DNA of 48,791 nt from an uncultured bacterium (GCA_902826395.1 CADEER010000023.1:1-48791), one strand, 5' to 3'; numbered from the stretch's first letter, positions 23 to 48,791 are shown. Numbers and translations: made by a program. The notes: a model not told the origin generated them from the letters alone.

Positions 23-52
23 ATCTCTGTGTCCTCTGTGCCTCTGTGGTGA
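23..52 (-). repeat. Arm of CACAGAG-type interspersed inverted repeat (right arm, window-edge copy)
   Basis: These 30 bases are the reverse complement of the arms at 3957-3986 and 35509-35538 and match the arm at 35639-35668 in the same orientation. The rest of this copy, including its partner arm, would lie left of the window. The arm ends in GTGGTGA, so the GTG codons proposed to start the glycosyltransferase gene lie inside it. Confidence 0.85.
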
Positions 53-1944
53 ATTCAGTCCTTTTCTTCGGCGCGTTGGCGACTGCCTTCTTGGGGCAGT
101 ATCTGCTGACGCCGTTTGGTGAGACGCGGGCTTTTGCGAAGCTTCCCGTCGAGCAGGCGCCGTTTGGCTTTGCGCTGCTCGTCATCGCGGGATTGGCGGC
201 GGCGTGGGTGGTCTGGCGCTGTGACGAGCGCGCTGACGACGCGCCGTCGCGCGCTCTACCGGTCTTGCGGCGGGGGTGGCTGAACGCCGCCGTGGTGCTG
301 GTCGCGGTGGCGGTGTCGGCGGTGCTGTACGACGCCGGCACCACCTGGGCGATCTGTCCGTGGGCTCTCGGCATACTGTTCCTCGTAGTGGCCGCGGCCG
401 GCGACGCGGTGGCGCCGCGCGCATCGGCCGTCGAATGGCTCGGTGTGGCGCTGGTCGTCGCGGTGGCGATTCTCTACCGGCTGCCCGGGCTGGAGAGCAT
501 TCCGCCGATGGTGCACGGCGACGAGGCTGCGTGTGGGATCGAGGCACGGCGCATCCTGCGCGGCGAGGTGTCCAACCTGCTCGGGATCGGTTGGTACGAC
601 ATCCCGCAACTGAGCTTCGCGCTGTCGGCGTTCTTCATGCGCATCTTCGGCGACGATCTGTTCGGTTTGCGCATGGGGTCGGTGGTGCTGGGCATCGCGT
701 CGGTGCCGCTGCTCTACGGCGTGGTGCGTGGCTTGTACGGCGCCGCGACGGCGTTCGTCGCCGCCTTTCTGCTCGCGGTGTCGCACTGGCACGTCCACTT
801 CAGCCGTATCGGCACCGATTACATGCAGGCGGGCTTCGCCGTGTTGCTGGTTCTGCTGTTCTTCTTGCGCGGTCGGCGGCACGGGCGAGCGCTCGACTGG
901 GTTCTGGCGGGTTTGTCGATCGGGTTGGCCTGCAGCGTGTATTACGCGGGACGGGCGAGCATCGTGATCGTTGCAGCGATCCTGATCTGCGACTGGTCCA
1001 TCGATCGCGAGGCCGCGCGCCGGTACGTGCGCGGTGCGACACTGATGTTGCTCGCGACCGTGCTCTTCGTCGCGCCGATCGTGGCGGCGATGGCGTGGTC
1101 GCCGTCGTCGCTGCTCGATCGATCGAGCGGGGTCTTCGTGCTGGCGCCGCACAATCTCGAGCACGTGGGGGCAACCGCCGACGCGCCCGGTATCGCGCGA
1201 GTGATGCTCATGCAGGCGGCGAACTCCCTTGCCGCTTTCAACTGGAAGGGAGAGACCAGCGAGCAGCACGCGCATCCGGCGCCGCTCCTCGACTTCTGGA
1301 CCGGTGCGGTTTTTGCCGTCGGACTGATCGCGTACACGATCGCGGCGTTGCGACGGCCGCGGCATCGCGTCGTTGTCGCGTGGTTCTGGATCAATCTGGT
1401 CCTCGGCTCGCTGCTCACCGTCGACGCGATGTTCTCGCCGCGCATGATCGCCGCAGTGCCGGCGATCTTCGTCTTCGCCGCCCTGGTGTTGGATCTCCAT
1501 CGCGAGCTCGCCGCCCGAACATTCGGCGGCGCGATCGCGGGCGTGTCGGTGGCCGTTTTTCTGGTCGCGACCGCCGTGGCCAACTACGAAGACTACTTCG
1601 AGCTGCACGTCCGCGATCTGCAGCCGGCCGCCGCGCCCACCATCCTGGCGCGCTTCCTCGCGGGAAACGCCGATGCACCGCCGATCTACGTCTACGGTAC
1701 ACAGTCGGTGCGCTACGACACGGCGCTCTTTCTGGTGCCCGAAACGACGGCGACCGATCTCGACGACGACAGCCCGCTGCCGCGCCCCGATCCCGCGGCG
1801 CTGGTAGTCGTCGATCTCGATTGGTCCGGCGCGTCCGACGTCGCCGCGCGGATCGCGGCCGAGTATCCGGCGGCGACGCGCACGTCACTGGTCATGTCGA
1901 ACGGCAGGACGGTCTTCGACGTCTACCGTTTGGAACGCCGATAG
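46..1944 (+). CDS. GT39-type (ArnT/PMT-like) integral membrane glycosyltransferase
   Basis: A protein of about 632 residues with roughly a dozen hydrophobic helices. After the early helices comes a periplasmic loop with the acidic motif HGDEAACGIEARR (about residues 158-170), typical of the catalytic loop of GT39-family enzymes that use polyprenyl-phosphate-linked sugars at the periplasmic face. The C-terminal 100 residues are a soluble tail. The substrate cannot be read from the sequence. The minor-pilin cassette that follows makes a pilus or envelope glycan target conceivable, but this is only inference. The start is uncertain: GTG at 46 or 49 lies within the repeat arm, the frame is open to the window edge, and the first membrane helix begins almost at once, so the gene may start upstream of the window. 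Confidence 0.75.
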   Translation: MVNSVLFFGALATAFLGQYLLTPFGETRAFAKLPVEQAPFGFALLVIAGLAAAWVVWRCDERADDAPSRALPVLRRGWLNAAVVLVAVAVSAVLYDAGTTWAICPWALGILFLVVAAAGDAVAPRASAVEWLGVALVVAVAILYRLPGLESIPPMVHGDEAACGIEARRILRGEVSNLLGIGWYDIPQLSFALSAFFMRIFGDDLFGLRMGSVVLGIASVPLLYGVVRGLYGAATAFVAAFLLAVSHWHVHFSRIGTDYMQAGFAVLLVLLFFLRGRRHGRALDWVLAGLSIGLACSVYYAGRASIVIVAAILICDWSIDREAARRYVRGATLMLLATVLFVAPIVAAMAWSPSSLLDRSSGVFVLAPHNLEHVGATADAPGIARVMLMQAANSLAAFNWKGETSEQHAHPAPLLDFWTGAVFAVGLIAYTIAALRRPRHRVVVAWFWINLVLGSLLTVDAMFSPRMIAAVPAIFVFAALVLDLHRELAARTFGGAIAGVSVAVFLVATAVANYEDYFELHVRDLQPAAAPTILARFLAGNADAPPIYVYGTQSVRYDTALFLVPETTATDLDDDSPLPRPDPAALVVVDLDWSGASDVAARIAAEYPAATRTSLVMSNGRTVFDVYRLERR

Positions 1945-2176: not shown

Positions 2177-2743
2177 ATGGGTTTGCGCAACCAATTCGAA
2201 CAGGGCCGTCCAACTTGTCATGTGCAAGTCAAACTTCGGTATCTGAGCAATAGCGGGTCCAGTCTGCCGGAAGTGATGACGACGGTCGGCGTCGTCGCGG
2301 TCCTGATGGCGATTGCCGCGCTCGGGCTGACCCGCCGCTACGTGGACCTGGAGTCCAGTCACCAGGAGCTGGTCAGTTCGGTTCGCGAGCTGCGGCTGCG
2401 CGCCACTCTCAAGGGTGCGCATTATCGGCTGACACCTTCTTCCTCCGCGTACGAGATACAGCGATTGCGCGACGACGACGGGGATGGGCTGTGGATCCCC
2501 GATCCGGATTCGCCGGCGCGCGTCGTCGAGCTGCCGCCCGGAGTGGCGATCGCGGCCGAAAAGCTGTCCGGCGATGCGGCGGCCGTCGAGTTCGATACGC
2601 GCGGTGTCATGGTCGATCCGGACGGCGCGGCCGCCGAAGTCGTGCGCATCGCGCTGACCGATGCAGACGGCGACCGGCGTGTCGTCGAAGTGTGGCCGAG
2701 CGGTCAGGTGCAGGGGCAGATCATTGTTGGAGTACTGCGCTGA
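2177..2743 (+). CDS. fimT: GspH/FimT-type minor pseudopilin (cassette 1)
   Basis: About 188 residues. The prepilin signature is a leader ending in NSG, followed by SSLPEV and a hydrophobic helix (VGVVAVLMAIAALGL). Glu at +5 is conserved, although the +1 residue is Ser instead of the usual Phe or Met. The remainder is a small beta-rich globular domain ending in a WPSGQV motif, which the cassette-2 paralogue at 43461-43958 shares as YPSGQV. It is expected to be cleaved by prepilin peptidase and to join the minor-pilin tip complex that primes type IV pilus assembly. The frame is open back to GTG 2114, but that gives a 48-residue leader; ATG 2177 gives about 27 and is preferred. It is first of four co-directional genes, with 22 bases before pilV. 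Confidence 0.75.
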   Translation: MGLRNQFEQGRPTCHVQVKLRYLSNSGSSLPEVMTTVGVVAVLMAIAALGLTRRYVDLESSHQELVSSVRELRLRATLKGAHYRLTPSSSAYEIQRLRDDDGDGLWIPDPDSPARVVELPPGVAIAAEKLSGDAAAVEFDTRGVMVDPDGAAAEVVRIALTDADGDRRVVEVWPSGQVQGQIIVGVLR

Positions 2744-2765
2744 TGCGCGTGGCCGGGGTGCTGCA

Positions 2766-3140
2766 ATGATGCGCGAGGCGAACGCCGGATTCACCCTAAT
2801 GGAAGTTCTCATCGGTATGGTCGTCGTCGGCCTCGCCGCGTCGGCGACGGCGGTTGCGATGCAGTCGGCGGCGAACTTCGTCGGCGAGAACGCGACCCAT
2901 ATCGAGGCGATCGCTCTCGCCCAGGAGGCGATCGAGGATCTGCGCGCTCTGCCCTACGAGGAGATCGAGAGCGGCGATCGGCAGAGCGACGACGGCCGCA
3001 TTGCCCTCACCTGGGAGGTCGAGGCCGACAGCCCGGAGGTGGGAACGAAATCGGTAGCAGTCGCTGCCGGCTGGACGTGGAAAGGGGAGCCGCGTCGGTA
3101 TGTCCTCAAGACGGTGTATTCGCGCATCGGCCGCAACTGA
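2766..3140 (+). CDS. pilV: PilV/GspI-type minor pilin (cassette 1)
   Basis: 124 residues. The short leader MMREANAG is followed by the class III prepilin signature FTLMEVLIGMVVVGL, with Phe +1 and Glu +5. A long alpha helix (ATHIEAIALAQEAIEDLRALPYEEI) follows, the usual PilV layout in which the LPYEEIE segment ends the helix before a beta domain. ATG 2766 is preferred because it leaves an eight-residue leader; ATG 2769 is the alternative. The 3' end overlaps the next gene by 41 bases, which suggests translational coupling. It should act in the pilus-tip priming complex with the neighbouring FimT, PilW and PilX proteins. The counterpart in cassette 2 is 43055-43474. Confidence 0.82.
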   Translation: MMREANAGFTLMEVLIGMVVVGLAASATAVAMQSAANFVGENATHIEAIALAQEAIEDLRALPYEEIESGDRQSDDGRIALTWEVEADSPEVGTKSVAVAAGWTWKGEPRRYVLKTVYSRIGRN

Positions 3141-3948
3141 TCAGCGCGGCTTCTCGCTGGTCGAGACGCTGGTGGCGCTCGTCCTCACGGGCATCGTCAT
3201 GGCCGTCTTCGTTCGCGACTTCGGCTTCACGGTGCAGACCCGCCGCGAAATGGACCTCGCGTCCGAAACCCAGCAGGCGCTCCACGCGGCGCACACCTTC
3301 ATCAGCCAGGAGCTGCGACAGGCGGGTGCGTGTCTACCCGAGAACGGCGAGTTCATCGCACTGGCGGGCAAAGACGGCGGCTCGCAGGACGAGCTCACCC
3401 TGCGCATCGGCATCGCCGACCGGGCGACGTTGACTTGCACGACGACGCTGCTCAGCGCCGACAAGGCGGCCGGCGAGCGGACCCTCGACGTGCAGGATGC
3501 CGCGGGCTTCCAGAAGGGGCAGTGGATCTACGTCACCCGCCTCGGCGGTCAGGGGGGCACGTTTCGCATCGCCTCGGCCGGCGCGGGACAGATCGAGATC
3601 GAGGGCGGCCTCGACGCCGACTACGTCGCCGGCGGCGGTGTGTACGCCGTCGAGGAACGCGTCTACGCGGTTCTCAACCTTGGCGACGTGCCGGTTCTGA
3701 CCGTGGCGATCGACGGCGCCGATCCGCAGCCGCTGGTCGCGGGAGTCGAGGAGCTCGACGTCAGTTATAAGCTCGATCCCTGCCCGCCGTGTGCCCCGGT
3801 GGACGAGCCGGTGAGCACATCCGAATGGCGCCGGGTGCGCGAGGTCGTCCTGCGGGTGACGGCGCGCTCGGTCTCACCGCGGCCGCAGGGCGGCGGCTAC
3901 GTCCGCTCCGAAGGCTCGACCGCGGTGCGCCCGCGCAACCTTCTCTAA
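3100..3948 (+). CDS. pilW: PilW-type minor pilin (cassette 1)
   Basis: 282 residues. Leader of 17 residues ending in RG, then FSLVETLVALVLTGIVM (Phe +1, Glu +5). The helix is followed by the PilW-like stretch ELRQAGACLPENGEFIAL, which is nearly repeated in the cassette-2 paralogue as ELRLGGACLPETGEFIAL. Both proteins also share a DPQP motif and end in PRNL. Four Cys residues are notable: one in GACLP, one in LTCTT and two in DPCPPC. The role is a minor pilin of the tip complex. The gene begins inside the 3' end of pilV in another frame. Its stop is followed after eight bases by a copy of the CACAGAG repeat, which separates it from pilX. Confidence 0.82.
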   Translation: MSSRRCIRASAATDQRGFSLVETLVALVLTGIVMAVFVRDFGFTVQTRREMDLASETQQALHAAHTFISQELRQAGACLPENGEFIALAGKDGGSQDELTLRIGIADRATLTCTTTLLSADKAAGERTLDVQDAAGFQKGQWIYVTRLGGQGGTFRIASAGAGQIEIEGGLDADYVAGGGVYAVEERVYAVLNLGDVPVLTVAIDGADPQPLVAGVEELDVSYKLDPCPPCAPVDEPVSTSEWRRVREVVLRVTARSVSPRPQGGGYVRSEGSTAVRPRNLL

Positions 3949-3956
3949 GGACTTCT

Positions 3957-4020
3957 TCACCACAGAGGCACAGAGGACACAGAGATCTCGTTTGCGGGAT
4001 GCGCTCTGCTGATGGCTCGC
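3957..4020 (+). repeat. Half copy of CACAGAG-type inverted-repeat element
   Basis: Bases 3957-3986 are a 30-base arm that matches the reverse complement of 35639-35668 exactly and differs from 35509-35538 by one base. Homology continues inwards: CTGATGGCTCGC at 4009-4020 corresponds to CTGATTGCTCGC at 35562-35573, at nearly the same distance from the arm. The other half and second arm are missing and replaced by the 5' end of the pilX reading frame. The ATG proposed for pilX lies inside this homology. Confidence 0.8.
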
Positions 4021-6249
4021 GACACTTTCAAGCCGTTTGGTCGATTGCTTCGCCTAGTGCTGCTGAGGTCGTGCTTCCGCCTGCGCAATCAGCGCGGCGC
4101 GGCGCTTCTCAGCGCGATCATGATTCTCGGCGCGCTCGGTGCCATCGCCGCGGTGCACGCCCTGAACGTGCGCGCGGCGCTGCGCATTCGCGGCGCCGGC
4201 GCCGAACGGCAGGTGGGCTACTACGCTGCCGAGGGCGGGCTCAATGTCGGCATCTCTCGCTTTGCGAACATCTTTCGCGAAGGCGGCAAGCCTCAGGCGG
4301 AGGACTTTGCGCAGACGTTCGCGCTCGACGATTACGAGGTCGCGGTCTCGCTGCGCGAATCGCCGGGCTGTGCCCCGTGCGCGGCGACGCGGATCGCGAT
4401 CGGAGAGGTATTCGCCGGCCTCAACACCATCCCGTACCGCTACACCATCCACGCCGAGTCCGGCCGCGCAGCTGGCGAGACGGCGGCACACGTCGCGGGC
4501 GAGTTCGACATCCACAATGTTCCGGTCTTCCAGTTTCTGGCGTTCGTCGACGCGCCGCTGTTCGCCATGCCGTTGCACGACATGACGCTGCACGGGCGCA
4601 TCCACACCAACGGTGACTTGTACGTGCAGCCGGACGCCGTGCTGCGCGTCGAGGATCTGCCGGGCCTGATCAACGACGTCCACGTCACCGCGGTCGGCGA
4701 CATCTATCGCGGCGGCCGCAAGTACGACGCGAGCTGGCGGTGCTCCGGAGATGTCTCGATCGACAAGTTGGAGGACGAGGCGGCGCCGCCGGGTGACCTC
4801 GATCCGCTGGCGATGTCGTGTTCGTCGTCGGCGCCGCTGTCGGAAAGCGCGCTGGGCGCCTGGCACGGATCGGTGCGCGCGGGAGTGCGCAACGTGGTCG
4901 CGCCGTCGATGGACATCCTGGCGCGCGGCTCCGGCGCGTATTGGCAAAACGCCGACCTGCGCATCGTTCTGCGCCTCGACGAGGTCGGTGCGCCGGTCGA
5001 TTTCGGGGCGCTCGATCTCTGTCCGGGTGCGCCGCCGTCGCCGCCGGGGTTGCATCCGATCGAGGTGCAGGATGCCGCGGGAGCGCGCGACGCGGTGCGC
5101 AGCCGCCGACTCCTGCGTTTCCTCTGCGAGCGTCGCGGCGCGCTCTTCTACAACGACGTGCCGATCGCGCCGCCGATCCCGCCCGACGCGGGCATCGCCG
5201 CCCAGCCGGGCAGCTACGCGCCCGCCTTCGCTGCCGCCGATCGCGTCTACCGCCGCGCCGGCGAGGACACGTCGGGCGACGGCGTCGTCGGCGGCAGCGA
5301 CGACAACGCCGATGTCTGTCCGTCGGGCGCCGGTGCGGCGCCGCCGTGGTTCAACGCGGCGACTTGCCCGCCGTTCAACGATCCCCCGGCTGCCAATCGC
5401 TGGTTCCTCGACACCGATTACCGCCGCGGCGGATTCTTCAATCACCGCGAGCAGGAATGGATGTACCTGCTCAATTTGAATCTGCGCGCCCTGATCGAGT
5501 GGAACGCGCTGAACGGCGACGCGTTGTTCGCGCGCGGCGACACCAGCGACGAGGGGCTGGTGATCTACCTCGGAGTGCAGGGGCCGGACTCGGAAGGCAT
5601 GAACAACTACGGCGTGCGCATCTTCGACTCGGCCGATCTCGACGGGACGAACGCGACGTTTCCGCCCGGCGTCGCCGACCCAACCGGCGTCTCGGTAGTC
5701 TCCGATCAACTCGCCATCGTCGAGGGCAACTTCAACATCCGCGACAAGGCGCCCGCCGCGGTGCTCGCCGATGCCGTCTACCTGCTGTCGCAGGGATGGG
5801 AGGTGCCGGCCGGCGTCGTCGCCAACGATCTGAAGAGCGCTTTCGACCTGGCCAGCAACACGCGCGACGTGCCGGCGGCCGACTGGCCCGGCGGCACCGC
5901 CTTCACGGCGCCGGGTGCGCTCGGCGTCAACGCGGCGCTGCTCGGCGGCATCGGGCCGAGCACCCTCGACCCAGATTGGTACAACGGCGGCATCGAGAAC
6001 TTCGCCCGCCTGCTCGAAAGCTGGAGCGGCCGCTCGCTGACCTACCGCGGCTCCTTCGTCAGCCTCGGCGAGCCGCGCCACAGGCTGAACCACTGGCACT
6101 GCGGCTCCGGCAACGCGTGCAACATCTACGACCCGCCGCTGCGCATGTTCGACTACGACACCGACTTCGACCGCGTGGAGAACCTACCCCCGATGACCCC
6201 GCGCTTCGTGTACCTGCAGCAGCGCATGTACACCCGCTTCTATCAGTAG
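4012..6249 (+). CDS. pilX: Giant PilX/GspK-like minor pilin (cassette 1)
   Basis: 745 residues from this start. The N-terminus carries NQRGAALLSAIMILGALGAIAAVHAL, a prepilin-like cleavage site (G|A) and helix that lacks Glu +5, as PilX and GspK proteins do. Next comes YYAAEGGLNVGISRF, the usual PilX segment. PilX proteins are usually about 150-250 residues; here some 650 residues of extracellular domain follow, with motifs shared with the cassette-2 paralogue: GRIHTNGDLYV, DYRRGGFFNHREQEWMY, RGSFVSLGEP and CNIYDPP. ATG 4012 lies in the repeat element and gives a leader of about 30 residues, so a later TTG 4045 or GTG 4057 is possible. I infer a pilus-tip or adhesin-like role. No pilY1 is visible in the window, so the large domain might supply a PilY1-like function, but this is speculative. 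Confidence 0.8.
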   Translation: MARDTFKPFGRLLRLVLLRSCFRLRNQRGAALLSAIMILGALGAIAAVHALNVRAALRIRGAGAERQVGYYAAEGGLNVGISRFANIFREGGKPQAEDFAQTFALDDYEVAVSLRESPGCAPCAATRIAIGEVFAGLNTIPYRYTIHAESGRAAGETAAHVAGEFDIHNVPVFQFLAFVDAPLFAMPLHDMTLHGRIHTNGDLYVQPDAVLRVEDLPGLINDVHVTAVGDIYRGGRKYDASWRCSGDVSIDKLEDEAAPPGDLDPLAMSCSSSAPLSESALGAWHGSVRAGVRNVVAPSMDILARGSGAYWQNADLRIVLRLDEVGAPVDFGALDLCPGAPPSPPGLHPIEVQDAAGARDAVRSRRLLRFLCERRGALFYNDVPIAPPIPPDAGIAAQPGSYAPAFAAADRVYRRAGEDTSGDGVVGGSDDNADVCPSGAGAAPPWFNAATCPPFNDPPAANRWFLDTDYRRGGFFNHREQEWMYLLNLNLRALIEWNALNGDALFARGDTSDEGLVIYLGVQGPDSEGMNNYGVRIFDSADLDGTNATFPPGVADPTGVSVVSDQLAIVEGNFNIRDKAPAAVLADAVYLLSQGWEVPAGVVANDLKSAFDLASNTRDVPAADWPGGTAFTAPGALGVNAALLGGIGPSTLDPDWYNGGIENFARLLESWSGRSLTYRGSFVSLGEPRHRLNHWHCGSGNACNIYDPPLRMFDYDTDFDRVENLPPMTPRFVYLQQRMYTRFYQ

Positions 6250-6327: not shown

Positions 6328-6603
6328 GTGGAGTTCGAATGGGATCCGGGGAAGGAAGCTTCGAACCTTGGCAAGCATGGTGTGTCCTTTGAGGAGGCGA
6401 TCACTATTTTCGCGGACCCCTTGGCAACGACGGTGTCAGATCGCGATCATTCGCGCGGCGAGGAGCGCTGGCTGACCACGGGCCTATCGAGCCGTCGACG
6501 CGTGCTCATCGTGTGGCATACGAATGCGGGACCGAGACTGAGAATCATTGGTGCGCGCGAGGCGACATCTCACGAGCGGAGGACGTATGAGTCGGGCGAA
6601 TAG
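6328..6603 (+). CDS. brnT: BrnT-family (DUF497) toxin
   Basis: 91 residues. The N-terminus MEFEWDPGKEASNLGKHGVSFEEA is the classic BrnT signature, followed by IFADPLATTVSDRDHSRGEERW and a C-terminal RIIGAREATSHERRTYE segment, all typical of this RelE-fold ribonuclease family that cleaves RNA to arrest translation. The length is normal for the family. The start is GTG with AGGG seven bases upstream. The antitoxin gene overlaps its 3' end, the usual toxin-first order of BrnTA systems. The local base composition is lower in GC than the neighbouring pilin genes, consistent with acquisition by transfer. Confidence 0.88.
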   Translation: MEFEWDPGKEASNLGKHGVSFEEAITIFADPLATTVSDRDHSRGEERWLTTGLSSRRRVLIVWHTNAGPRLRIIGAREATSHERRTYESGE

Positions 6604-6808
6604 GCATAGCGAGGAAGGAGAAATGAATTCGGAGTATGACATTCGCGGGGGAGTCCGAGGGAAGTACTTCGAACGGTACCAGCAGGGGACGAACGTTGTG
6701 CTTCTCGATTCCGACGTTGCCGCTGTCTTTCATGACTCCGAGTCTGTAAACCGCGCGCTAAGGATGCTCATCGAGGTGGCGCGTGGTGTCAGGACTGACA
6801 GGCAATAG
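6587..6808 (+). CDS. Antitoxin partner of BrnT
   Basis: 73 residues from ATG 6587, which has a good ribosome-binding site (GGAGG, five-base spacing) and overlaps the end of brnT by 17 bases. A second in-frame ATG at 6623 also has AAGGAG just upstream and would give 61 residues. The core EYDIRGGVRGKYFERYQQGTNVVLLDSDVAAVFHDSESVNRALRMLIEVA is the conserved DUF497-partner antitoxin pattern, whose C-terminal DSESVN..LR helix region resembles ribbon-helix-helix-type operator-binding partners. It should neutralise the toxin and probably co-repress the operon. Counted GC in 6601-6720 is 65 of 120 bases, low for this window. Confidence 0.82.
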   Translation: MSRANRHSEEGEMNSEYDIRGGVRGKYFERYQQGTNVVLLDSDVAAVFHDSESVNRALRMLIEVARGVRTDRQ

Positions 6809-9439: not shown

Positions 9440-10906
9440 ATGCCGGTCGTGAACAACGCTGCGGTCACGCGTGTAGTCGGGATCAACGCAGCTCTCGCGT
9501 TTGCCTATGCCGCGATCGGCTTCCTGGGGTTGCAGGTTCCGTACTACGGCCAGTACGTGACGCTCTTCTGGGCGCCCACCGCCATCGCGCTGACGGCGGT
9601 GGTGCTGTTCGGGCCGGTGGCGGTCGCGGGGATCTATTTTGGCTCCTTCGCGTTGAACCTCGTCCTCGAACCTGGCCAACCGTTGGGCGGTGCCTTGATC
9701 GCCGCCGGCAACACGCTTGGCCCTACGATCGCGGGCCTCGCTCTGGTGCGAGTCTACGATTTCCGGCCGCAGCTCGATCGGGTGCGCGACGTGTTCGCAT
9801 TCTTCGCCGTCGGTGTGGTCGGTACGGGATTGATCACGGCCACGCTCGGCGCCTTCTGGTTTTGCCTGTTCGGTGTGGTTGCGTGGCGCGAATACGCCGC
9901 CTTCTGGCTGACCTGGTTCGGCGGCGAGGCGGCAGGCTCGCTGATCGTCGCGCCGTTGCTCCTCACCTGGCTCTCTCCGCGGGATCCCGTCATCGACGGT
10001 AGGGCTGGCGCCGGTGAGAGAGTCGCGATGGTGGTTTCGGTCGCCATCTTCGCGGCGTTCGTCCTCGTCTATGGCGAGAGGCTTCCTTCTTTGCCGTATG
10101 GCTTCGGGTTCTTCTTCATGTGGAGCCTGTTTCGCGCCGGCCGGCGCGGCGTCACCCTGGCGGTCGTCGGGGCGGCGCTGCCACTGGCGGTCGGTACGGC
10201 CCTCGGAACCGGGCCTTTTCTCGAGCCGTCGCCGCGCGCCGGCATGCTGTCGCTGTGGATGACGATCGCAGTCGCGGGCAGCGCCTGTTGCACGGCCGGT
10301 GCGCTGCTCGCCGAGCGCGATCGCGCGATGCACCACCAGCGCGGCCTGATCGCCGAGCTCGACCATCGGGTCAAGAACACTCTGGCGACCGTCGTCGCGC
10401 TCGTCGGCCGCGACCACGCCATCGATGTCGCCGACTTCCGCACCCGATTCGTCGACCGGGTGCGGGCGATCGCGCGCACGCACGAAGGGCTGGCGCGTTC
10501 GAACTGGGAGCCGATGCAGGTCGAGGACGTCGTCGCAATGACGCTGATGCCATTCGCGGATGCCGGTCGAGACCACTTGCATGCGATTGGCAGCGCAACG
10601 GCGCTCGCCCCGTCCCAGGTCACGCCGTTGACGATGGTGCTGCACGAGCTGGCGACCAACGCCGCGAAGCACGGAGCGTGGTCGCGGGAGGGCGGTCGAG
10701 TCGACGTGGCCTGGGCAAACGGCGCCGACGACTCGCTGTGCATCGACTGGCATGAAAGCGGCGGCCCAAAGGTGATTTCTCCTCCGGCGCCGGGTTACGG
10801 TCTGCAGTTGATCGAAGGGATCGTCGACCACCAGCTCGGCGGCCGTGCCGTGCTGGCGTTTCGCGAGGAGGGACTGCTCTGCACCCTCCACATCCCGAGC
10901 GCTTGA
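9440..10906 (+). CDS. MASE1 sensor histidine kinase of the HWE/HisKA_2 type (paralogue 1)
   Basis: 488 residues. The first 290 are about eight to ten membrane helices with MASE1 hallmarks: PYYGQYVTLFWAPTAIAL, FRPQLDRVRDVFAF and FWLTWFGGEAAGSLIVAPLLL. Then ELDHRVKNTLATVVAL gives the HWE/HisKA_2 phospho-acceptor (His309), and VLHELATNAAKHGAWS (Asn407) and GYGLQLIEGIVDHQLGG form the ATP-binding domain. It should sense an unknown membrane signal and phosphorylate a response regulator, but none is adjacent. A very similar paralogue lies at 17915-19411. ATG 9440 follows GGGGAGG closely (two-base gap); GTG 9449 is an alternative start. Confidence 0.88.
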   Translation: MPVVNNAAVTRVVGINAALAFAYAAIGFLGLQVPYYGQYVTLFWAPTAIALTAVVLFGPVAVAGIYFGSFALNLVLEPGQPLGGALIAAGNTLGPTIAGLALVRVYDFRPQLDRVRDVFAFFAVGVVGTGLITATLGAFWFCLFGVVAWREYAAFWLTWFGGEAAGSLIVAPLLLTWLSPRDPVIDGRAGAGERVAMVVSVAIFAAFVLVYGERLPSLPYGFGFFFMWSLFRAGRRGVTLAVVGAALPLAVGTALGTGPFLEPSPRAGMLSLWMTIAVAGSACCTAGALLAERDRAMHHQRGLIAELDHRVKNTLATVVALVGRDHAIDVADFRTRFVDRVRAIARTHEGLARSNWEPMQVEDVVAMTLMPFADAGRDHLHAIGSATALAPSQVTPLTMVLHELATNAAKHGAWSREGGRVDVAWANGADDSLCIDWHESGGPKVISPPAPGYGLQLIEGIVDHQLGGRAVLAFREEGLLCTLHIPSA

Positions 10907-17717: not shown

Positions 17718-17914
17718 AGACGTGCCGACCCGCGACTGGTGACGCTTGCATTTTCCCAGGCACTCTCGCAGCTTCCCCGGATGGCCAGCCCGCGCATTCA
17801 CCAGCGCCGCTCGGAACGCGTGATGATTCGCGCGCGATGCACGGTCGGGGCGGCGGCCGCGCAGAAAGACGGTGTCGCGCGCGCGGTCGGCTGGCGGTGA
17901 AGTCGGCGAAATCG

Positions 17915-40604: not shown

Positions 40605-40680
40605 GGCGGCAATGTGTAGCGTGCCGAATGCCCGCCTGCCAGGGGCGCCCGGGGCAGTACGGCGCCGCCATCAGTCTCGA

Positions 40681-40758
40681 TCGAAATCGAAATCCAAATC
40701 GAAATCGAAATCCTCACCAGTACGGCGACCTCGATTTCGATTTGGATTTCGATTTCGA
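40681..40758. repeat. Perfect 28-bp inverted repeat made of GAAATC-like hexamers
   Basis: Left arm 40681-40708 and right arm 40731-40758 are exact reverse complements, with a 22-base loop. Each arm is a degenerate hexamer tract (TCGAAA / TCCAAA units). The element lies between the start of xthA (40604) and the end of the small zinc-ribbon-like gene (40772), both read from the minus strand, so it could also terminate the latter. Its sequence is unlike the GC-rich neighbourhood. Confidence 0.85.
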
Positions 40759-41271: not shown

Positions 41272-42234
41272 ATGGAGGACGTTCTGGACCGCCGGGGCGG
41301 CAGGGCCGAGCGATCGATGCCGAGCCACACGGTGCCGACCGAGCACCAGGAGCACGCCAGCATCGGCGCCGCCGAAGAGCGGCGCGAGCGCGCCACCTGG
41401 CGGGTCATCGTTCTCACGGTTGTCATGATGATCGGCGAGATCGTCGCCGGCCGCATCTTCAACTCGATGGCCCTGCTGGCCGACGGCTGGCACATGGGCA
41501 GCCACGCGGCGGCTCTCGGCATCACCGCGTTTGCGTATTCCTATGCGCGACGCCACAGCGACAACGAGCGCTACGCGTTCGGTACCTGGAAGGTCGGCGC
41601 GCTCGGTGGCTTTGCCAGCGCCCTCGGGCTCGGCGCCGTCGCGGTGTTTCTGGCAGTGGAGTCGATCGAGCGCCTCTTCGAGCCGGGCGTGATTGCGTTC
41701 GATCAGGCGATCGCGGTCGCGGTGCTCGGTCTGATCGTCAACCTGGTCTCGGCGCTGATGCTGGGCGATCACGACCACGACCATGACGACGCGGCTCCCG
41801 ACCACAACATCCGCGCCGCGTACGTGCATGTCCTCACCGACGCCCTCACCTCGGTCCTGGCGATCGTCGCGCTGCTCGCCGGCAAGTTGGCGGGGTGGGA
41901 TTGGTTGGATCCGCTGATGGGCATCGTCGGATCGGCGATCATCGGGTGGTGGGCGCTGGGGCTGATTCGCGACACGTCGCGCGTGCTGCTGGACAGCGAC
42001 GTCGAGCCCGCCGTCGCCGCGGCGGTGCGGCAGGCGATCGAGAGCCACGACGACAATCAGGTCGTCGACCTACATCTGTGGCGGGTCGGACCGAACGGTC
42101 TGTCGGCGATCATTTCGGTTGCCACGCACGAGCCGCGCCCGCCGGAGCACTACAAGAAGCTGGTCGCCGACGTCTTCGACCTGACGCACGTCACCATCGA
42201 GGTGCATCGTTGCGCGGGAGGCGACTGCGCCTGA
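41272..42234 (+). CDS. dmeF: Cation diffusion facilitator, DmeF-type Co/Ni exporter
   Basis: 320 residues from ATG 41272; the frame is open from 41185, and ATG 41317 is also possible. Six membrane helices are predicted, with the CDF metal site LADGWHMGSHAAALG on helix 2 and HVLTDALTSVLAIVAL on helix 5. The cytosolic loop is His-rich (GDHDHDHDDAAPDHN). The C-terminal metal-sensing domain reads VVDLHLWRVGPNGLSAIISVATHEP. The WHMGSHAAAL form is typical of DmeF-type cobalt/nickel exporters, but zinc or other divalent metals are possible. It would move metal out of the cytoplasm in exchange for protons. No regulator is adjacent. Confidence 0.85.
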   Translation: MEDVLDRRGGRAERSMPSHTVPTEHQEHASIGAAEERRERATWRVIVLTVVMMIGEIVAGRIFNSMALLADGWHMGSHAAALGITAFAYSYARRHSDNERYAFGTWKVGALGGFASALGLGAVAVFLAVESIERLFEPGVIAFDQAIAVAVLGLIVNLVSALMLGDHDHDHDDAAPDHNIRAAYVHVLTDALTSVLAIVALLAGKLAGWDWLDPLMGIVGSAIIGWWALGLIRDTSRVLLDSDVEPAVAAAVRQAIESHDDNQVVDLHLWRVGPNGLSAIISVATHEPRPPEHYKKLVADVFDLTHVTIEVHRCAGGDCA

Positions 42235-42252: not shown

Positions 42253-43077
42253 TCAGTCGCTGATCAGGTTGCGCGGCTTGATCGTGACGTCGTACGTGCG
42301 GCGATAGTGATCGCCACTCGGGCTGGCTTCGGACGAGCGAGCGGTCAGCGCCACGTGAACTCGCCGCACGGCCCGCCATTGTTGGTCGCCGGACGGCTGA
42401 TCGGATTCGGTGCCGTCGGCGAGCTCGTAGCGCAGCTCGAGCCTTTCGATGCCCATTGCAAAGGGCTGCGGGTCGGCGCCGCCGACCTGAAGCATCAGGC
42501 GCGGCAGTCCGGAGGCGGTGTCGATGTAGAAGCGTCGCTCGTCGATCGCGTAGACGCCGCTGGTGGCGGGATAGTCGGTCGACGGCGCCGAGTCGATCGT
42601 GAGCAGGAGGTTGTCCTGGTCGATGCCGGCGACTTTGAAGTACTCGCCGCTGCCGTCGGTGTGGCGGAGGTAGACGAGGCCGCCTACGGCGAAGTCTTCG
42701 ACGTCGTTCACGGCGAGCGACGACGAGGCGGGTGTTGTGATCTCGCGAGTGGCCGTCTGGATGCACGTCAGGTCCGCGGTGGTCAGCCCATAGCGTGTGG
42801 TCAACCGGTCGCGGTCGTCGTCGTCCGTCGCTTCGAGGGCGATGAACTCGCCGGTTTCCGGCAGGCAGGCGCCGCCTAGGCGCAGCTCGCGCAAGATCAT
42901 GTCGATCGCGGCGCGCCCGGCGTGGGTCGCTTCGATTTCCTTGCCCTGCTCTTGGATGTGGCTCTTTCCAGCCAGCATCATGCCCGTGGTCAGGGCGATG
43001 CCGGTGGCGGTGATCATCAGGGCGACCAGCAGCTCGATGCTGCCGAAGCCGCGTTCATTCCGCTGTGACTTGGGCAT
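42253..43077 (-). CDS. pilW: PilW-type minor pilin (cassette 2)
   Basis: 274 residues. Leader MPKSQRNERG, then FGSIELLVALMITATGIALTTGMML (Glu +5). ELRLGGACLPETGEFIAL, the DPQPF motif and the final KPRNL match the cassette-1 PilW. A minor pilin of the tip complex. Its start overlaps the end of pilV by 23 bases. Unlike cassette 1, where pilW precedes pilX, here it is the last gene, so the internal order of the two clusters differs. Confidence 0.85.
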   Translation of the reverse strand: MPKSQRNERGFGSIELLVALMITATGIALTTGMMLAGKSHIQEQGKEIEATHAGRAAIDMILRELRLGGACLPETGEFIALEATDDDDRDRLTTRYGLTTADLTCIQTATREITTPASSSLAVNDVEDFAVGGLVYLRHTDGSGEYFKVAGIDQDNLLLTIDSAPSTDYPATSGVYAIDERRFYIDTASGLPRLMLQVGGADPQPFAMGIERLELRYELADGTESDQPSGDQQWRAVRRVHVALTARSSEASPSGDHYRRTYDVTIKPRNLISD

Positions 43078-43474
43078 AGACGGTCTGCAGGTCGATATGT
43101 TGCGGGCCGATCGGCGAGCGCCACGAGACCCGGACGCCGATGCTCTTCATATTCTCCGCCGGTACGCCGTCGCGCACGGTCGACACCATTTTGAAGACGA
43201 CGTCGTTCTCCTCCGCGTCGCGCGTCGAGCCGACCATCTCTGCGAACGGCAGCGAGCGGATGCGTTCGATCTCGTCGGCGGCCATCGCGTAGGCCGCAGT
43301 GCCGAGGTGATTGCCGGCGGCGTGGCGGATCTGCGTGGTCATGAATCGACCGATCGCCGCAGCGCCGAGGATCAACAGACCGAGCGCGATCAGCGATTCG
43401 ATCAGCGTGATGCCGCGCTGGTCGGCGAGGCGCGCGGAGCGAGTAGGCCGGTCTATGCGCTCAGGCGTCGGCAT
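43055..43474 (-). CDS. pilV: PilV-type minor pilin (cassette 2)
   Basis: 139 residues. Leader of 20 residues ending in RG, then ITLIESLIALGLLILGAAAIGRF (Glu +5). The helix continues as AMAADEIERIRSLPFAEM, equivalent to the LALPYEEI region of cassette 1. It overlaps the end of fimT by 14 bases and the start of pilW by 23, so the last three genes are tightly coupled. Confidence 0.84.
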   Translation of the reverse strand: MPTPERIDRPTRSARLADQRGITLIESLIALGLLILGAAAIGRFMTTQIRHAAGNHLGTAAYAMAADEIERIRSLPFAEMVGSTRDAEENDVVFKMVSTVRDGVPAENMKSIGVRVSWRSPIGPQHIDLQTVYAQVTAE

Positions 43475-43958
43475 CGACCTGTCCCGAGGGGTACACGGTG
43501 AGGGTTCTCGTAGTCGCGAACTTCGAGTCGCTGAGCGTCCAGGTGAGCGGCGCCGTCTTGGTCGGGTCTTCGAACACCACCGTGCCGCGGCTGTCGATAT
43601 CGATGAAGTCCAGCTCGCCGGTGCTCAACTCTATGTGCGAAGGCAGCTCGGTCTCACGTACGGTGGCTGTGGTCGTCCAGACGCCGTCCACTTCGGCGAG
43701 GCGATCGATCGCATAGGAGCTGTCGCCGGTGGCGCGAAAGCGCATGTGCTCGCCCGCGACGATGGCGCGCGCTCGCGCCCAGCGGACGTCGGCGCTGACC
43801 TGGCGCAGCGAGGTGTTGATGTCGCCGCGCGTGCGATCGAACGACGTCAGTCCCATGGCGGCGAGAATGGCGACGATGGCGACCGTCGCCATCAACTCGA
43901 TCAAACCGTACCCGCGGCAATCGAGGGGCCGTCGGCCGATGCGACTGGGTGTTTTCAC
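43461..43958 (-). CDS. fimT: GspH/FimT-type minor pseudopilin (cassette 2)
   Basis: 165 residues from GTG 43958. A 19-residue leader (MKTPSRIGRRPLDCRG) precedes YGLIELMATVAIVAILAAMGL, with Glu +5. The globular domain has SADVRWARARAIVAGEHMRFR, LDFIDIDSRGTVVFED and the terminal YPSGQV shared with the cassette-1 protein. The stop TGA of the giant pilX is followed directly by this GTG, with no gap, so the two genes are translationally coupled. Acts as part of the pilus-tip priming complex. Confidence 0.84.
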   Translation of the reverse strand: MKTPSRIGRRPLDCRGYGLIELMATVAIVAILAAMGLTSFDRTRGDINTSLRQVSADVRWARARAIVAGEHMRFRATGDSSYAIDRLAEVDGVWTTTATVRETELPSHIELSTGELDFIDIDSRGTVVFEDPTKTAPLTWTLSDSKFATTRTLTVYPSGQVDADA

Positions 43959-46073
43959 TCAGTTGAACTCCTGCGCAAAGAGGCGCTGCTTGAGGAACGT
44001 GAATCGCGGGGTGAGCGGCGGAAGATTCGCGATGTCGTTGAAGGCGGTGTCGAAGTTCCAATCGCGGTTGGGCGGATCGTAGATGTTGCAGCCGCCGCCG
44101 GTGCCGCACCACGCGCCGTCGACGTGGAACGGCTCGCCGAGCGAGACGAATGAGCCGCGGTAGCGCAGCCAGGTGCCCGACCAGTCCTCGTGGAAGCGCG
44201 GGTAGTTCTCCAACCCGCCGTTGTAGTCGCCGGCGTAGCCGGTCGGCGTCGTGTCGACCCCTCCAAGGAACGCGGCGTTCATCACGGTGGTCGCGCCGCG
44301 TCGCGAGCCGGCGCCGAGGTTGGTCGTGCTCTGGCCGTCGCGGCAGTTGTTGCCGACGCAGTTCGGATTCCAGTAGTTCTCCGACAACAGATTGATCGAG
44401 TCGCCGATCACGGCCGCGGGTTGGCGTGGCGCGATCGTCTGGTCGGACCATGCGTTGAGCGTGCCGGGCGCGACGATGCCGCGGTTGTAGTCGCCGAGGA
44501 CATACATTGCCTGATCGGACACCACCGTCAGGCCGGTGGGGTTGGCGACGACACCGATGCCGCCGGGGATCGCCAGGTTGGCGCCACCAAAAAGCCGGAC
44601 GGCGTAGTTGTTCTCGATGTCGGAAAGAGGCCCTTCTACCGTCGCGTAAATGACGAGCCCGCCGTCGCTGACGTCCTCGGTGTCGAACAGAGGCTCGCCG
44701 TTCGCTGTGTTCCAACGCAGCAGATCGCCGATGTTGATGTTGAGCATCAGCATCCACTTCTGCTCGCGCCGGTTGTAGAAGCCGCCGCGGCGGTAGTCGA
44801 GGTCGAAGTTGCCGCCCGTTCCCATCGCCGTCGCGTAGACGCCGCGCGGCAGCGGCAACAGCGGGACCGATGCGTGGGGAAGGAAGCCGTCGTAGCAGAG
44901 GCGCAGAGTGCTGCCGATACAGGTCGGCGTGGCGTCGTTGCAGAAGCACCCGGCGGTGTCGAGAGGCACGTCGGTGTAGAACACCGGCATGGTGCCGCGA
45001 TAGGTGCTGTTTGCGGCGTTCCAGGCGCTGTCGCTCATGAACTGGTGGATCGCGTTGGTGCGAGCGGCGTCACGCTCGCCCGCGGCGGTCTGGACTTCGA
45101 TGGCGTGCGACAACATGGGGCCGCCGGGAAGCTGATCGGCTGAGTTGAGCTTGAGGACGAGGCGAAGGTCGGCGCGCCCCCAGAACTGACCGGTTCCCTT
45201 GTCGATGATGTCGGGCTCGGGGATGGAGATCGTCTCGATGTCGCTGCGGATCGAGCCCTGCCAAGCGTCGAGCTCGCTTTGCGGTACGAGGCGCGTTGCG
45301 GAGCCGTTGCACGGCAGTGCATGTGGATCCAGATCGCCCGTCGGCGCGACGACGTCTTCCAGCTTGTCGACCTTGACGGTGCCCTCGCAGAGGCTGCGAT
45401 CCTTGCGTCCGCGGTACAGGCCACTGCCGGCCGATACCTGTACCGAGTTCGCGCCCAGGGCCGGTGCATCACCGATACTCAGGTTGCTGCCGGCGCTCAG
45501 ATACAGCGCGCCGTTGGTGTGGATGCGGCCGGTCAAGATCATGTCCGGTCCGGGCAGGATCTCGAGATCGTTTCTGTAGAAGGCCGCGAACTGGAACAAC
45601 GGAATGTAGGAAACCAGGAACTCGGCGCCGAGACGGGCCTCGATGTCGCCGATCGGATTCTCCGCCTCCGCCGAAACCACGTAGCTGTACTGCTGAGAGT
45701 TTACGCCCGCGAACAGCTCGCCGGCCGGAATCACCGCGGTCTTCGGGTTGTTCTCCCGCTCGGCCAGCGAGTAGGTCACATCGCGATCGCCGACCGCGAC
45801 GGAGCGCGCCGTGAAATCGGATCCGGTAGGCACGTTGTAGTCGAGGAAGATGTTCTTGAAGCGCGCCATCCCGATGTTGAGCCCCGACTCGGCAGCGTAG
45901 AAGCCGGTCAGAGAATGGCCGAAGGCGCCGCGCAATCGCGTATCCGAGGTGGTGTTGACCGCCATCACGGCGGCGAGTGACAGCAGCAGGACCAGAACGA
46001 TGACGGCGCCGAGTAGTGCGGCGCCGCGCTCGCCGTCGATCCTTCGTCTGTTGGTGATCATTGTCTCGTTCAT
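43959..46073 (-). CDS. pilX: Giant PilX/GspK-like minor pilin (cassette 2)
   Basis: 704 residues from ATG 46073, which has a purine-rich GAAGAGG just upstream; the frame is open to 46235 but that part does not look like protein. The leader ends in ERG and is followed by AALLGAVIVLVLLLSLAAVMAV, lacking Glu +5 as in GspK/PilX. FYAAESGLNIGMARF, GRIHTNGALYLS, DYRRGGFYNRREQKWM, RGSFVSLGEPFH and CNIYDPP are shared with the cassette-1 protein, at about the same positions. The extracellular domain is over three times the usual PilX length. It is first in its cassette, so it is the likely tip-initiating component or adhesin. Confidence 0.85.
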   Translation of the reverse strand: MNETMITNRRRIDGERGAALLGAVIVLVLLLSLAAVMAVNTTSDTRLRGAFGHSLTGFYAAESGLNIGMARFKNIFLDYNVPTGSDFTARSVAVGDRDVTYSLAERENNPKTAVIPAGELFAGVNSQQYSYVVSAEAENPIGDIEARLGAEFLVSYIPLFQFAAFYRNDLEILPGPDMILTGRIHTNGALYLSAGSNLSIGDAPALGANSVQVSAGSGLYRGRKDRSLCEGTVKVDKLEDVVAPTGDLDPHALPCNGSATRLVPQSELDAWQGSIRSDIETISIPEPDIIDKGTGQFWGRADLRLVLKLNSADQLPGGPMLSHAIEVQTAAGERDAARTNAIHQFMSDSAWNAANSTYRGTMPVFYTDVPLDTAGCFCNDATPTCIGSTLRLCYDGFLPHASVPLLPLPRGVYATAMGTGGNFDLDYRRGGFYNRREQKWMLMLNINIGDLLRWNTANGEPLFDTEDVSDGGLVIYATVEGPLSDIENNYAVRLFGGANLAIPGGIGVVANPTGLTVVSDQAMYVLGDYNRGIVAPGTLNAWSDQTIAPRQPAAVIGDSINLLSENYWNPNCVGNNCRDGQSTTNLGAGSRRGATTVMNAAFLGGVDTTPTGYAGDYNGGLENYPRFHEDWSGTWLRYRGSFVSLGEPFHVDGAWCGTGGGCNIYDPPNRDWNFDTAFNDIANLPPLTPRFTFLKQRLFAQEFN

Positions 46074-46376: not shown

Positions 46377-48791
46377 TCAGCCCGAGAACGCCGGGGTCGC
46401 GGCGCCGGAGGCGTCGACGTTCCACGGCTCCCAGACGAGCAGCAGGGCTTCCACGGCTACGTCGGTCTTGCGCGGGCGGACGATGATCTCCTCGAGAGCG
46501 AACTCGGAGGGATCGACTTCTCCGCGCAGTGCCGCAATCGCCTCGTCGAGCTCGCGCTGCATGCCCTGCAGCTCCTCCTGCACCGAGTCGACATTGTCCT
46601 CGGCGCGCGTCACGTCGCCTTGCTCACGGGCGATGCGGCCGTAGCCGCGCGCAGCGGTCGCCGCGCGACCGACGTTGCCGGTGCTGAGCAGCTTGCGTCC
46701 GAAGATCGCGCCGACGACCGTGGCGCCGAGCGAAATCAGGGTCTGGCTCTTCTGTTGGTCGTACTGCTCGCGTTCCTTCTCGACCTTCTGCACGGCGCGC
46801 TCGATGCGCTCCTTGATGCGCGCGAGCTTGGGCGCAAAGCTGGCGCGCATCTTCTCGATCTCGGCGTCGCGCTCCTCGCGCAATCGATGGCGCAGACGAC
46901 CGCGAAACTCTCCTTCGGTCTCGCCGGCGCCGCTCACCAGTCGCGGCTCGCTGCACCGCAGCACGCGTAGCTCCTGACTCCGATAGAGGTGTGACTGTAG
47001 AGACTTGGTCCACTTCGCATACTGTGCCGCATCGGCAGCAGTGGCGGGCAAAGGCGCGAACGCGGCTCCGCTGGTGGGTGCCGCCGCGAGCTCGGGCAGC
47101 GCGGTGCCTGTAACTTGCGCGGTCGCCCACGGATCGCCTGACTTCCCGTCGAGCGGCGCTCGTACGGAGACGTGGCGCCACTCGTCGACCGCCACGTTCG
47201 ACTTGCTGAAGTGCAGCGTCGCCTGGGCGCGCAGCGCCGGCCGATACACGATGGTCTCTCCGGCTGCCGGCGCGTTAACTGCGACGGCAAAGCGCTCGGT
47301 AATGGCGGAGGGTAGCACCGGCCGGGTCTGCGCGACGTCGCTTCGGGCGTTGTCCGGCGGTGGAGCCGACGGCCTTGCGTCTGGCGGTTCCGCAGCGCGC
47401 TCCACCGGGCTTGCCTGCGGCGACGCCAGCGTCGCGATCTGTGCGCGGGTCAGTGGTCCGGCCAGGTAAGACAAAGCCCAGCGCGTCTGGAAGATGCTCG
47501 GCTGATCTTCGTGGACGTTGTTCATCAGGAAGACGCGGTTGCCGAGCCCGGCGAGTGTGCGCTCGGTTGCGGCGCGGTCGAACGACTTGCCGGCGGATGC
47601 CGACGCGCCTTCGAGGCCTTCGAGCACGCGGGCCTTGTCGCGCTCGGTCTGCAGCCGTCCGAGGAACCACGTGCCGGCATTGGAGAGCGCCTTGTAGTCG
47701 AGGTCGACGGGATTCTGCGTGGCGAGGACGACGCCGAGTCCGAATGCGCGCGCCTGCTTCAGCAGCGTCAGCATCGGTACTTTGGACGGTGGGTTGGCGG
47801 TCGGCGGCAGGTAGCCGAACACCTCGTCCATGTAGAGCAGCGCACGCAGCGACTGGCTGCCGGGCTGCGCGCGCATCCAGGCGACGACTTCGTTGAGCAC
47901 GGCGGTGACGAGAAACATCCGCTCGGCATCGGTCAGATGCGCGATACTGATCACCGACAGGCGCGGCTTTCCGGCCGCGGTGTAGAGCAGGCGGGCGGCG
48001 TCGAGCGGCTCGCCGGTCGACCAGGCGGCGAAGCCGGGCGAGGCGATGAGGCCGTTCAGCGACATCGCGAGCTCGAAGCGTTCCGCCGCCGGAAAGAAGG
48101 TGTTGACGTCCATCACGCCGACGCGCGCCATCGGCGGCGACTGCACGCGCTGAATGATCGCCGGCAGGTCGAGCTGCTGGCCGTTGCGCCATGCGTCGTC
48201 GAGGATCGTCGACAGGAGAATGTGCTCGCGGCTGCGCAGCGGGTCGGCGGCGATGCCGAGCAGTGCCAGCAGACCCGAGACGGTCGCCATGATGCGCTCG
48301 CGCAGTGCATCGGGGTCGGCGAGGACGCCCGCGCCGGGCGGCGCGAACGATTCGAGCAGACTGATCGGACGGCCCGACAGGCTGCCGGGTGTGTAGATGG
48401 TGCGCTCCGCGGCATCGGCGAACTTGCGAATGCGTTCGCCGCTCTGATCCCAGTCGGCGAGTCCGTTGCGCCACAGGTCGGCGGTCCAGCGCGCCTGCTC
48501 CTCGACGGTGCGGCCTTTGCGCGCGGCGTCGCTTGCGTCCACCCACGGCGTGAAGTCGGCAGGCCGCAGCTCCGGAAAGGTGAGCAGCAGATTGCCGAGG
48601 TCGCCCTTCGGATCGATGGCGATCACCGGGATGCCGTCGATGACCGCCTCTTCGATGATCGAGATGGCGAGACCGGTCTTGCCACTGCCGGTCATGCCGA
48701 CGCAAACGGCGTGCGTCGTCAGGTCTTTCGAGTCGTAGAGAAACGGCTCGCGCCGCGGCTCGCCGGCAGGATCATCGAGCGGCCGACCGAG
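46377..48791 (-). CDS. HerA-like ATPase, 5' end outside the window
   Basis: At least 804 residues; the frame is open to the window edge. The Walker A motif is VCVGMTGSGKTGL; the Met within it is therefore not the start. Walker B is RALLYMDEVFGYLPP and GVVLATQNPVDLDYKAL is the sensor region, all typical of the HerA/FtsK-type DNA-translocating ATPases. Past residue 430 from the Walker A Met, the chain turns into a low-complexity region and a coiled-coil-rich end (RDAEIEKMRASFAPKLARIKERIERAVQKVEKEREQYDQQKSQ, then EDNVDSVQEELQGMQREL). No NurA-type partner is visible on this side. A phage-defence or DNA-processing role is possible but not supported by neighbours. Confidence 0.85.
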   Translation of the reverse strand, partial: LGRPLDDPAGEPRREPFLYDSKDLTTHAVCVGMTGSGKTGLAISIIEEAVIDGIPVIAIDPKGDLGNLLLTFPELRPADFTPWVDASDAARKGRTVEEQARWTADLWRNGLADWDQSGERIRKFADAAERTIYTPGSLSGRPISLLESFAPPGAGVLADPDALRERIMATVSGLLALLGIAADPLRSREHILLSTILDDAWRNGQQLDLPAIIQRVQSPPMARVGVMDVNTFFPAAERFELAMSLNGLIASPGFAAWSTGEPLDAARLLYTAAGKPRLSVISIAHLTDAERMFLVTAVLNEVVAWMRAQPGSQSLRALLYMDEVFGYLPPTANPPSKVPMLTLLKQARAFGLGVVLATQNPVDLDYKALSNAGTWFLGRLQTERDKARVLEGLEGASASAGKSFDRAATERTLAGLGNRVFLMNNVHEDQPSIFQTRWALSYLAGPLTRAQIATLASPQASPVERAAEPPDARPSAPPPDNARSDVAQTRPVLPSAITERFAVAVNAPAAGETIVYRPALRAQATLHFSKSNVAVDEWRHVSVRAPLDGKSGDPWATAQVTGTALPELAAAPTSGAAFAPLPATAADAAQYAKWTKSLQSHLYRSQELRVLRCSEPRLVSGAGETEGEFRGRLRHRLREERDAEIEKMRASFAPKLARIKERIERAVQKVEKEREQYDQQKSQTLISLGATVVGAIFGRKLLSTGNVGRAATAARGYGRIAREQGDVTRAEDNVDSVQEELQGMQRELDEAIAALRGEVDPSEFALEEIIVRPRKTDVAVEALLLVWEPWNVDASGAATPAFSG

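Follow-up and report, generated by a model that had tools for sequence, protein, structure and literature searches.

Two minor-pilin cassettes in a Candidatus Binatia genome probably encode alternative tip complexes for a single type IVa pilus

We analyzed a 48,791-nucleotide stretch of bacterial DNA (GCA_902826395.1, CADEER010000023.1:1-48791; the window) that carries two complete sets of minor-pilin genes, cassettes 1 and 2. We think it likely that each cassette encodes one of two alternative tip (priming) complexes used by the single type IVa pilus (T4aP) of the cell. Each encodes three small pilins, called here T (FimT/GspH-like), V (PilV/GspI-like) and W (PilW/GspJ-like), and X, a pilin of ~700 residues that lacks the glutamate at position 5 (Glu5). 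A different X-type protein (DUF7305-type) found in other sets is called X'. The window spans the entire contig C23 of a metagenome-assembled genome (MAG) of 6.09 Mb in 423 contigs, 95% complete with 1.5% contamination. The MAG belongs to Candidatus Binatia, a class placed under Candidatus Binatota in NCBI.

Two paralogous cassettes with different gene orders

The gene order is T-V-W-X on the + strand in cassette 1 and X-T-V-W on the - strand in cassette 2 (Table 1). The initial annotation had given these same orders, with X named pilX and T named fimT, and had noted paralogous motifs between the cassettes in all four proteins. We confirmed both statements. The motifs that it quoted are present, GACLPE(N/T)GEFIAL in W and RGSFVSLGEP in X, and the blastp matches of the four pairs are far above the cross-type background. 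X1 and X2 are 41-44% identical in two blocks spanning most of the protein (E ~1e-68 to 1e-75). Identity is 35% for W1/W2 (274 amino acids [aa], E 3e-40), 30% for T1/T2 (166 aa, E 1e-16) and 28% for V1/V2 (116 aa, E 4e-11). Cross-type matches among the cassette proteins were insignificant, except those through the common pilin helix.

T, V and W of both cassettes carry class III prepilin sites that include Glu5. The site of T1 is atypical (G^SSLPE), and the start of its gene is uncertain (2114 GTG, 2177 ATG or 2276). Glu5 is absent from both X proteins (sites RG^AALLSA and RG^AALLGA), as it is from GspK and PilX. At 745 and 704 aa, however, neither protein is a typical PilX. A Pfam search found no domain in X1, and a profile search with W against solved structures gave pilin-helix matches and one stray hit only. 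Each cassette contains four linked prepilins of the H, I, J and K types, as in a T4aP minor-pilin (FimU/PilV/PilW/PilX) tip set.

One pilus machine and six minor-pilin sets

We found that the source genome encodes one T4aP machine. The genome was searched family by family, and pilus and type II secretion system (T2SS) genes outside the window were named from gene order, size and N-terminal sequence together with family hits. Contig C9 carries pilB-pilT-pilC-pilS-pilA and the prepilin peptidase gene pilD, and contig C15 carries pilM-N-O-P-Q. There is one PilB in the genome, and PilM is also single. The secretins are one on C15 (PilQ) and one on C3 (GspD). C3 encodes a complete T2SS, gspC-N in order, including its own GspG-H-I-J-K.

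The minor-pilin sets are more numerous. The first lies on C9 beside pilD and has an X of 338 aa; it is the only set accompanied by core genes. Sets 2 and 3 are the window cassettes 1 and 2. Set 4, on C6, is T-V-W-X, with an X 64% identical to X2. Set 5 is split into W-X on C148 (L030) and T-V on C102 (L033), neither half lying with its partner genes. Set 6, on C30, is T-V-W-X' with a different, 461-aa X'. The ~700-aa X is carried by sets 2-4 and by the W-X half of set 5. From the counts of core genes and of sets we therefore arrive at one machine and six sets.

These counts bear on several statements of the initial annotation. The core-gene count that it called for gave one PilB, PilC, PilMNOP and PilQ set. 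It had assumed that minor-pilin sets usually occur once per pilus system, which is contradicted by Myxococcus xanthus, with three sets and one pilus machine (PMC7541494), by myxobacteria with up to six pilY1 genes (PMC13190605) and by Xylella with two sets (PMC9956873). Its proposal of two pili is unsupported: there is one T4aP core, one T2SS that encodes GspG-K itself, on another contig, and six minor-pilin sets. The idea of different tips, or of tip switching, survives as an inference about one pilus and not as two pili. It had also named outcomes that would speak against its reading, namely that the cassettes belong to two complete secretion systems or that the proteins fall outside each other's family. 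Neither was found.

X is predicted to resemble ComZ

An AlphaFold2 (AF2) model of X2 was built on a 27-sequence alignment (pLDDT 76, pTM 0.78). Besides a pilin sheet and a long helix at the N terminus, the model shows an extensive region of short, parallel-type strands. In its matches to pilins, the C-terminal strand aligned with the pilin body. In a Foldseek search of the PDB with this model, the only significant match was ComZ (6QVI; E 8.7e-5, probability 0.99). The whole model aligned with ComZ over 376 residues (Z 12.7, root-mean-square deviation [rmsd] 10.5 Å). When the solenoid was modelled alone, no PDB entry other than ComZ reached Z >= 2; ComZ itself had Z 13.7 (285 residues aligned, rmsd 4.2 Å). 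The Foldseek E-value for this part was weak (0.13). These models predict that X combines a GspK-like pilin body with a large beta-solenoid, an architecture like that of ComZ. ComZ of Thermus has been proposed as a DNA receptor, and the pilus tip is argued to be the only position into which it fits (PMC6561018).

By sequence, X appears distantly related to cyanobacterial HpsA. It was hit repeatedly by the NCBIfam HpsA model (NF038301), with E-values down to 6e-15 in the source genome, but failed its curated cut-off (best 54 bits in the source genome versus 400).

The X solenoids are strongly acidic (isoelectric point [pI] 4.5-4.7). The most divergent part of X1 and X2 is a poorly modelled loop at about residues 356-432, with 15% identity versus 32-52% over the helix, sheet and solenoid. 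This loop is a candidate for the ligand-determining region, although a low-confidence, gap-rich loop would look variable too.

Cassettes are inherited as units and occupy conserved sites

We compared the source MAG with genomes G164, G201 and G207, giving four genus members, each a species. Set order and type were compared with a hidden Markov model (HMM) map across 49 loci. The X tree has two strongly supported clades whose split is older than the genus. Cassette 1 (group C) falls in clade I, together with groups D and E, and cassette 2 (group B) falls in clade II with group A. Within the genome, cassettes 1 and 2 do not pair as closest relatives, as judged by the X search and the tree. The T, V and W trees (FastTree, with weaker support than the X tree) agree with that of X, holding groups A, B and C together and showing the clade I/II split; T1, for example, groups with L125 of G164. 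Because the T, V and W trees show the same groups as X, we conclude that cassettes are inherited as units.

In most outgroup sets, also in those of other phyla, the order is T-V-W-X or V-W-X, which is therefore probably ancestral. X-T-V-W, the group B order in each of the four genus members, is then probably derived. Tandem arrays occur in other Binatia (T-V-W-X-X in L132 and T-V-W-X-X-T-T-V-W in L139), and X-T-V-W may have arisen by tandem duplication of T-V-W-X followed by loss of the outer genes. Group E is T-V-X-W in G164 and V-X-W, at a contig end, in G207. In every genus member, group D consists of W-X only, with no group-D T or V nearby; some of these contigs end close by. The orphan T-V on C102 is nearest to group E. 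We rejected random shuffling of gene order, as orders are conserved within orthologous groups. We also rejected the idea that linkage of the two cassettes is essential, as G164 has groups B and C on different contigs. DUF7305-type X' hits on contigs C88, C11, C20 and C23 of G164 were discarded because they lie outside minor-pilin sets.

The two cassettes flank a conserved gene block. The order in the window is glycosyltransferase, cassette 1, intervening genes, TetR, nuclease, cation efflux, cassette 2 and HerA-like ATPase. G201 retains cassette 2 at the site flanked by efflux and HerA genes, and no group-C X (the cassette 1 type) was found in its genome. In G164, cassette 1 adjoins the same glycosyltransferase, and cassette 2 is on another contig (C50). 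The efflux-HerA site of G164 (C19, L148:3222-6171) holds an unrelated T-V-W-X' set with a 419-aa DUF7305 X', to which the set on C30 of the source genome is related. From the contents of this site in G201 and the window versus G164, we conclude that one genomic site carries different tip sets across species. Either one set was replaced by the other or there were two independent insertions.

Further sets were seen during this comparison. A diverged V-W-X-like set with weak HMM scores lies on C110 of G164 (L124:3-2145), a few kb from the group-D W-X. In another phylum, Zixibacteria, V-W-W-X-X (L058) and V-W-X (L061) sets have a related X, and the X of L058 has a clear PilX_N domain.

X and PilY1 do not co-occur in the class

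We found no hit to the PilY1 domain (PF05567) in the source genome. The same search was positive in 0/14 control genomes and was therefore extended to the class, where 22 genomes were positive. X homologues in the class were counted only at E <= 1e-12; in a phylum-wide search, matches below the strong hits were mostly to the pilin helix only. Among 148 genomes of the class, 17 had X, 22 had the PilY1 domain and none had both (P 0.054). Among the 80 that were PilM-positive, 16 had X and 22 had PilY1, and the overlap was 0 where 4.4 were expected (hypergeometric P 0.003, uncorrected for ancestry). This suggests that X occurs where PilY1 is missing. The exclusion is suggestive only, because it is structured by family and a diverged PilY1 would be missed.

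Proposed alternative tips for one pilus

In T4aP, minor pilins are located at the tip and prime assembly, and models place PilX on top of the stack and under PilY1 (PMC7541494). Pilins with grafted domains are modular and common (PMC8179133). For the window cassettes, we infer tip position, priming, ligand binding and choice between tips along the same lines. T, V and W of each cassette would make up a stack of small pilins that initiates the fibre. X would cap this stack, its Glu5-less GspK-like body anchoring it at the tip and its grafted beta-solenoid pointing outward as a binding module. X would do the combined job of PilX and PilY1. Since only one assembly machine is present, the set that is expressed and assembled first would decide what the pilus binds, be it a surface, a polysaccharide, another cell or DNA. 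Parts may be shared between sets, as suggested by the orphan W-X of group D in four species and by the orphan T-V on C102.

Several observations weigh against this interpretation. The similarity of X to ComZ is not significant at the level of sequence (profile search E 0.85, pilin helix only), and the link between them rests on predicted folds. There are 42 PilM-positive genomes with neither X nor a PilY1-domain hit, so neither protein is a universal requirement. In G150, which has X, no PilM was seen, perhaps because of a gap in the MAG. Finally, the X/PilY1 pattern follows families, and the P values ignore kinship.

Other functions of the cassettes can be envisioned. They could be competence modules, with X as a ComZ-like DNA receptor and the sets serving DNA uptake and not adhesion. 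ComZ is the one clear match to the fold of X, and the T-V-W-X content, three small pilins and one large, parallels pilA1-3 plus comZ (PMC6561018). However, the solenoids are strongly acidic (though ComZ also is without an obvious positive patch), and four diverged X paralogues in one genome fit varied ligands better than DNA alone, so we consider this unlikely. We are a little more doubtful that the cassettes are Hps-like pseudopilin sets that handle or secrete polysaccharide with the pilus machine. The repeated HpsA hits of X and the match of W1 to HpsC (2e-6) point in that direction, as does the combination of minor pilins with polysaccharide genes in hps clusters (PMC12288463). Nonetheless, every hit is far under the family cut-offs, and beside the window cassettes there is no polysaccharide synthesis cluster, the nearest thing being the single PMT-type glycosyltransferase adjoining cassette 1.

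The remaining alternatives concern the machine that the cassettes serve. It is very improbable that each cassette builds its own distinct pilus: several major-pilin-like genes (C9, C47, C29) would allow more than one fibre composition, but we found just one each of the T4P motor, platform, alignment complex and secretin, and no cassette except the C9 set has core genes beside it. That the cassettes encode T2SS pseudopilins is already largely refuted and least credible of all. T is weakly GspH-like and X weakly GspK-like, yet equivalog cut-offs are not reached, the cassettes lie outside the gsp operon, and the system on C3 comes with a complete, ordered GspG-H-I-J-K of its own. Based on these results, we favor alternative tips on one pilus.

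Beyond the window, we tentatively raise a broader possibility, which we regard as less likely than its opposite. A T4aP tip independent of PilY1, with the solenoid-bearing X replacing PilX and PilY1, may exist across several phyla. In Binatia it would form a swappable repertoire in which whole cassettes are exchanged at fixed slots and half-cassettes (W-X, T-V) share parts in trans, giving many tips per machine. Multiple minor-pilin sets on one machine are already known, and condition-dependent sets of Synechocystis have been proposed to form different tip complexes (PMC12288463). Our literature search, which most subscription papers lay outside, found no PilY1-free multi-copy ComZ-like repertoire and no slot exchange of sets.

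The field has yet to explain how a single pilus machine can perform many functions. With six natural tip sets on one machine, several of which have orthologues in a fixed order, the idea of exchangeable tips becomes directly testable, and the orphan W-X and T-V halves offer a natural test of subunit mixing between sets. The results suggest a tip design without PilY1, and they link, by fold or sequence, ComZ, HpsA-type proteins and PilX/PilY1 tips, which are usually treated apart.

Other features of the window

Directly downstream of cassette 1 is a BrnT toxin gene (6328-6603, +; PF04365, E 4.5e-25), followed by a small open reading frame (ORF; 6548-6808) that could encode the antitoxin and has no Pfam match. 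Two MASE1-HWE histidine kinase genes (9440-10906 and 17837-19411, +) flank genes for pyruvate:ferredoxin oxidoreductase and a mechanosensitive channel. Near cassette 2, between the nuclease gene and a small ORF, is a hexanucleotide tandem repeat, ATCGAA x5.5 (40680-40712).

Table 1. Cassette genes and their conserved neighbours in the window
Feature	Position	Strand	Remarks
Glycosyltransferase, PMT_2, conserved left neighbour of cassette 1	46..1944	+	PF13231 9.1e-15; orthologue beside orthologous cassette in G164
T1, FimT/FimU/GspH-like minor pilin, cassette 1	2177..2743	+	Pfam GspH E 0.0016; paralogue of T2
V1, PilV/GspI-like minor pilin, cassette 1	2766..3140	+	N_methyl 7.7e-6; TIGR02523 PilV 1.6e-4, below cut-off
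W1, PilW/GspJ-like minor pilin, cassette 1	3100..3948	+	N_methyl 2.2e-7; HpsC pseudopilin 2.1e-6, below cut-off
X1, 745-aa Glu5-less ComZ/HpsA-like tip pilin (predicted), cassette 1, group C, clade I	4012..6249	+	HpsA 2.4e-5, GspK 0.013, both below cut-off
Cation-efflux transporter, conserved neighbour of cassette 2	41272..42234	+	PF01545 4.7e-35; adjoins cassette 2 in G201 and the slot with another set in G164
W2, PilW-like minor pilin, cassette 2	42253..43077	-	Pfam PilW 0.00099, below cut-off; paralogue of W1
V2, PilV-like minor pilin, cassette 2	43055..43474	-	TIGR02523 PilV 1.3e-5, below cut-off; paralogue of V1
T2, FimT/GspH-like minor pilin, cassette 2	43461..43958	-	N_methyl 1.6e-5; GspH 0.0033; typeII_sec_gspH 1.5e-8, below cut-off
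X2, 704-aa Glu5-less ComZ/HpsA-like tip pilin (predicted), first gene of cassette 2, group B, clade II	43959..46073	-	PilX_N 0.0041, HpsA 1.4e-12, both below cut-off
Beta-solenoid domain of X2 (about residues 156-690; predicted)	44004..45608	-	Separate AF2 model
HerA/DUF87-like ATPase, runs off contig, conserved neighbour of cassette 2	46377..48791	-	Adjoins cassette 2 in G201 and the slot with another set in G164

Comparison with known systems

ComZ of Thermus thermophilus (6QVI) is, like X, a GspK-like pilin with a large beta-solenoid, and it is encoded beside three small pilins, PilA1-PilA3 (PMC6561018). X differs in its several paralogous copies, its acidic solenoid and the lack of significant sequence similarity, and its fold is a prediction. 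Clusters 1-3 of Myxococcus xanthus (FimU-PilV-PilW-PilX-PilY1) likewise provide several full sets with a Glu5-less PilX for one T4aP machine (PMC7541494). In contrast, the source genome has no PilY1-domain hit, and its X is ~700 aa with a predicted grafted solenoid. The GspH-I-J-K tip of type II secretion also has four subunits and a Glu5-less cap with an inserted domain. The insert of GspK is an alpha-domain (PMC8179133), whereas that of X is predicted to be a beta-solenoid, and the T2SS of the source genome has its own set. Among HpsA-HpsD of filamentous cyanobacteria, the HpsA model hits X and the HpsC model hits W1, with scores far below cut-off; unlike hps genes, the window cassettes are not accompanied by a polysaccharide operon. 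The pilA9-pilA10-pilA11-slr2018 operon of Synechocystis, which is needed for flocculation (PMC6755745), likewise encodes three small pilins and one further protein.

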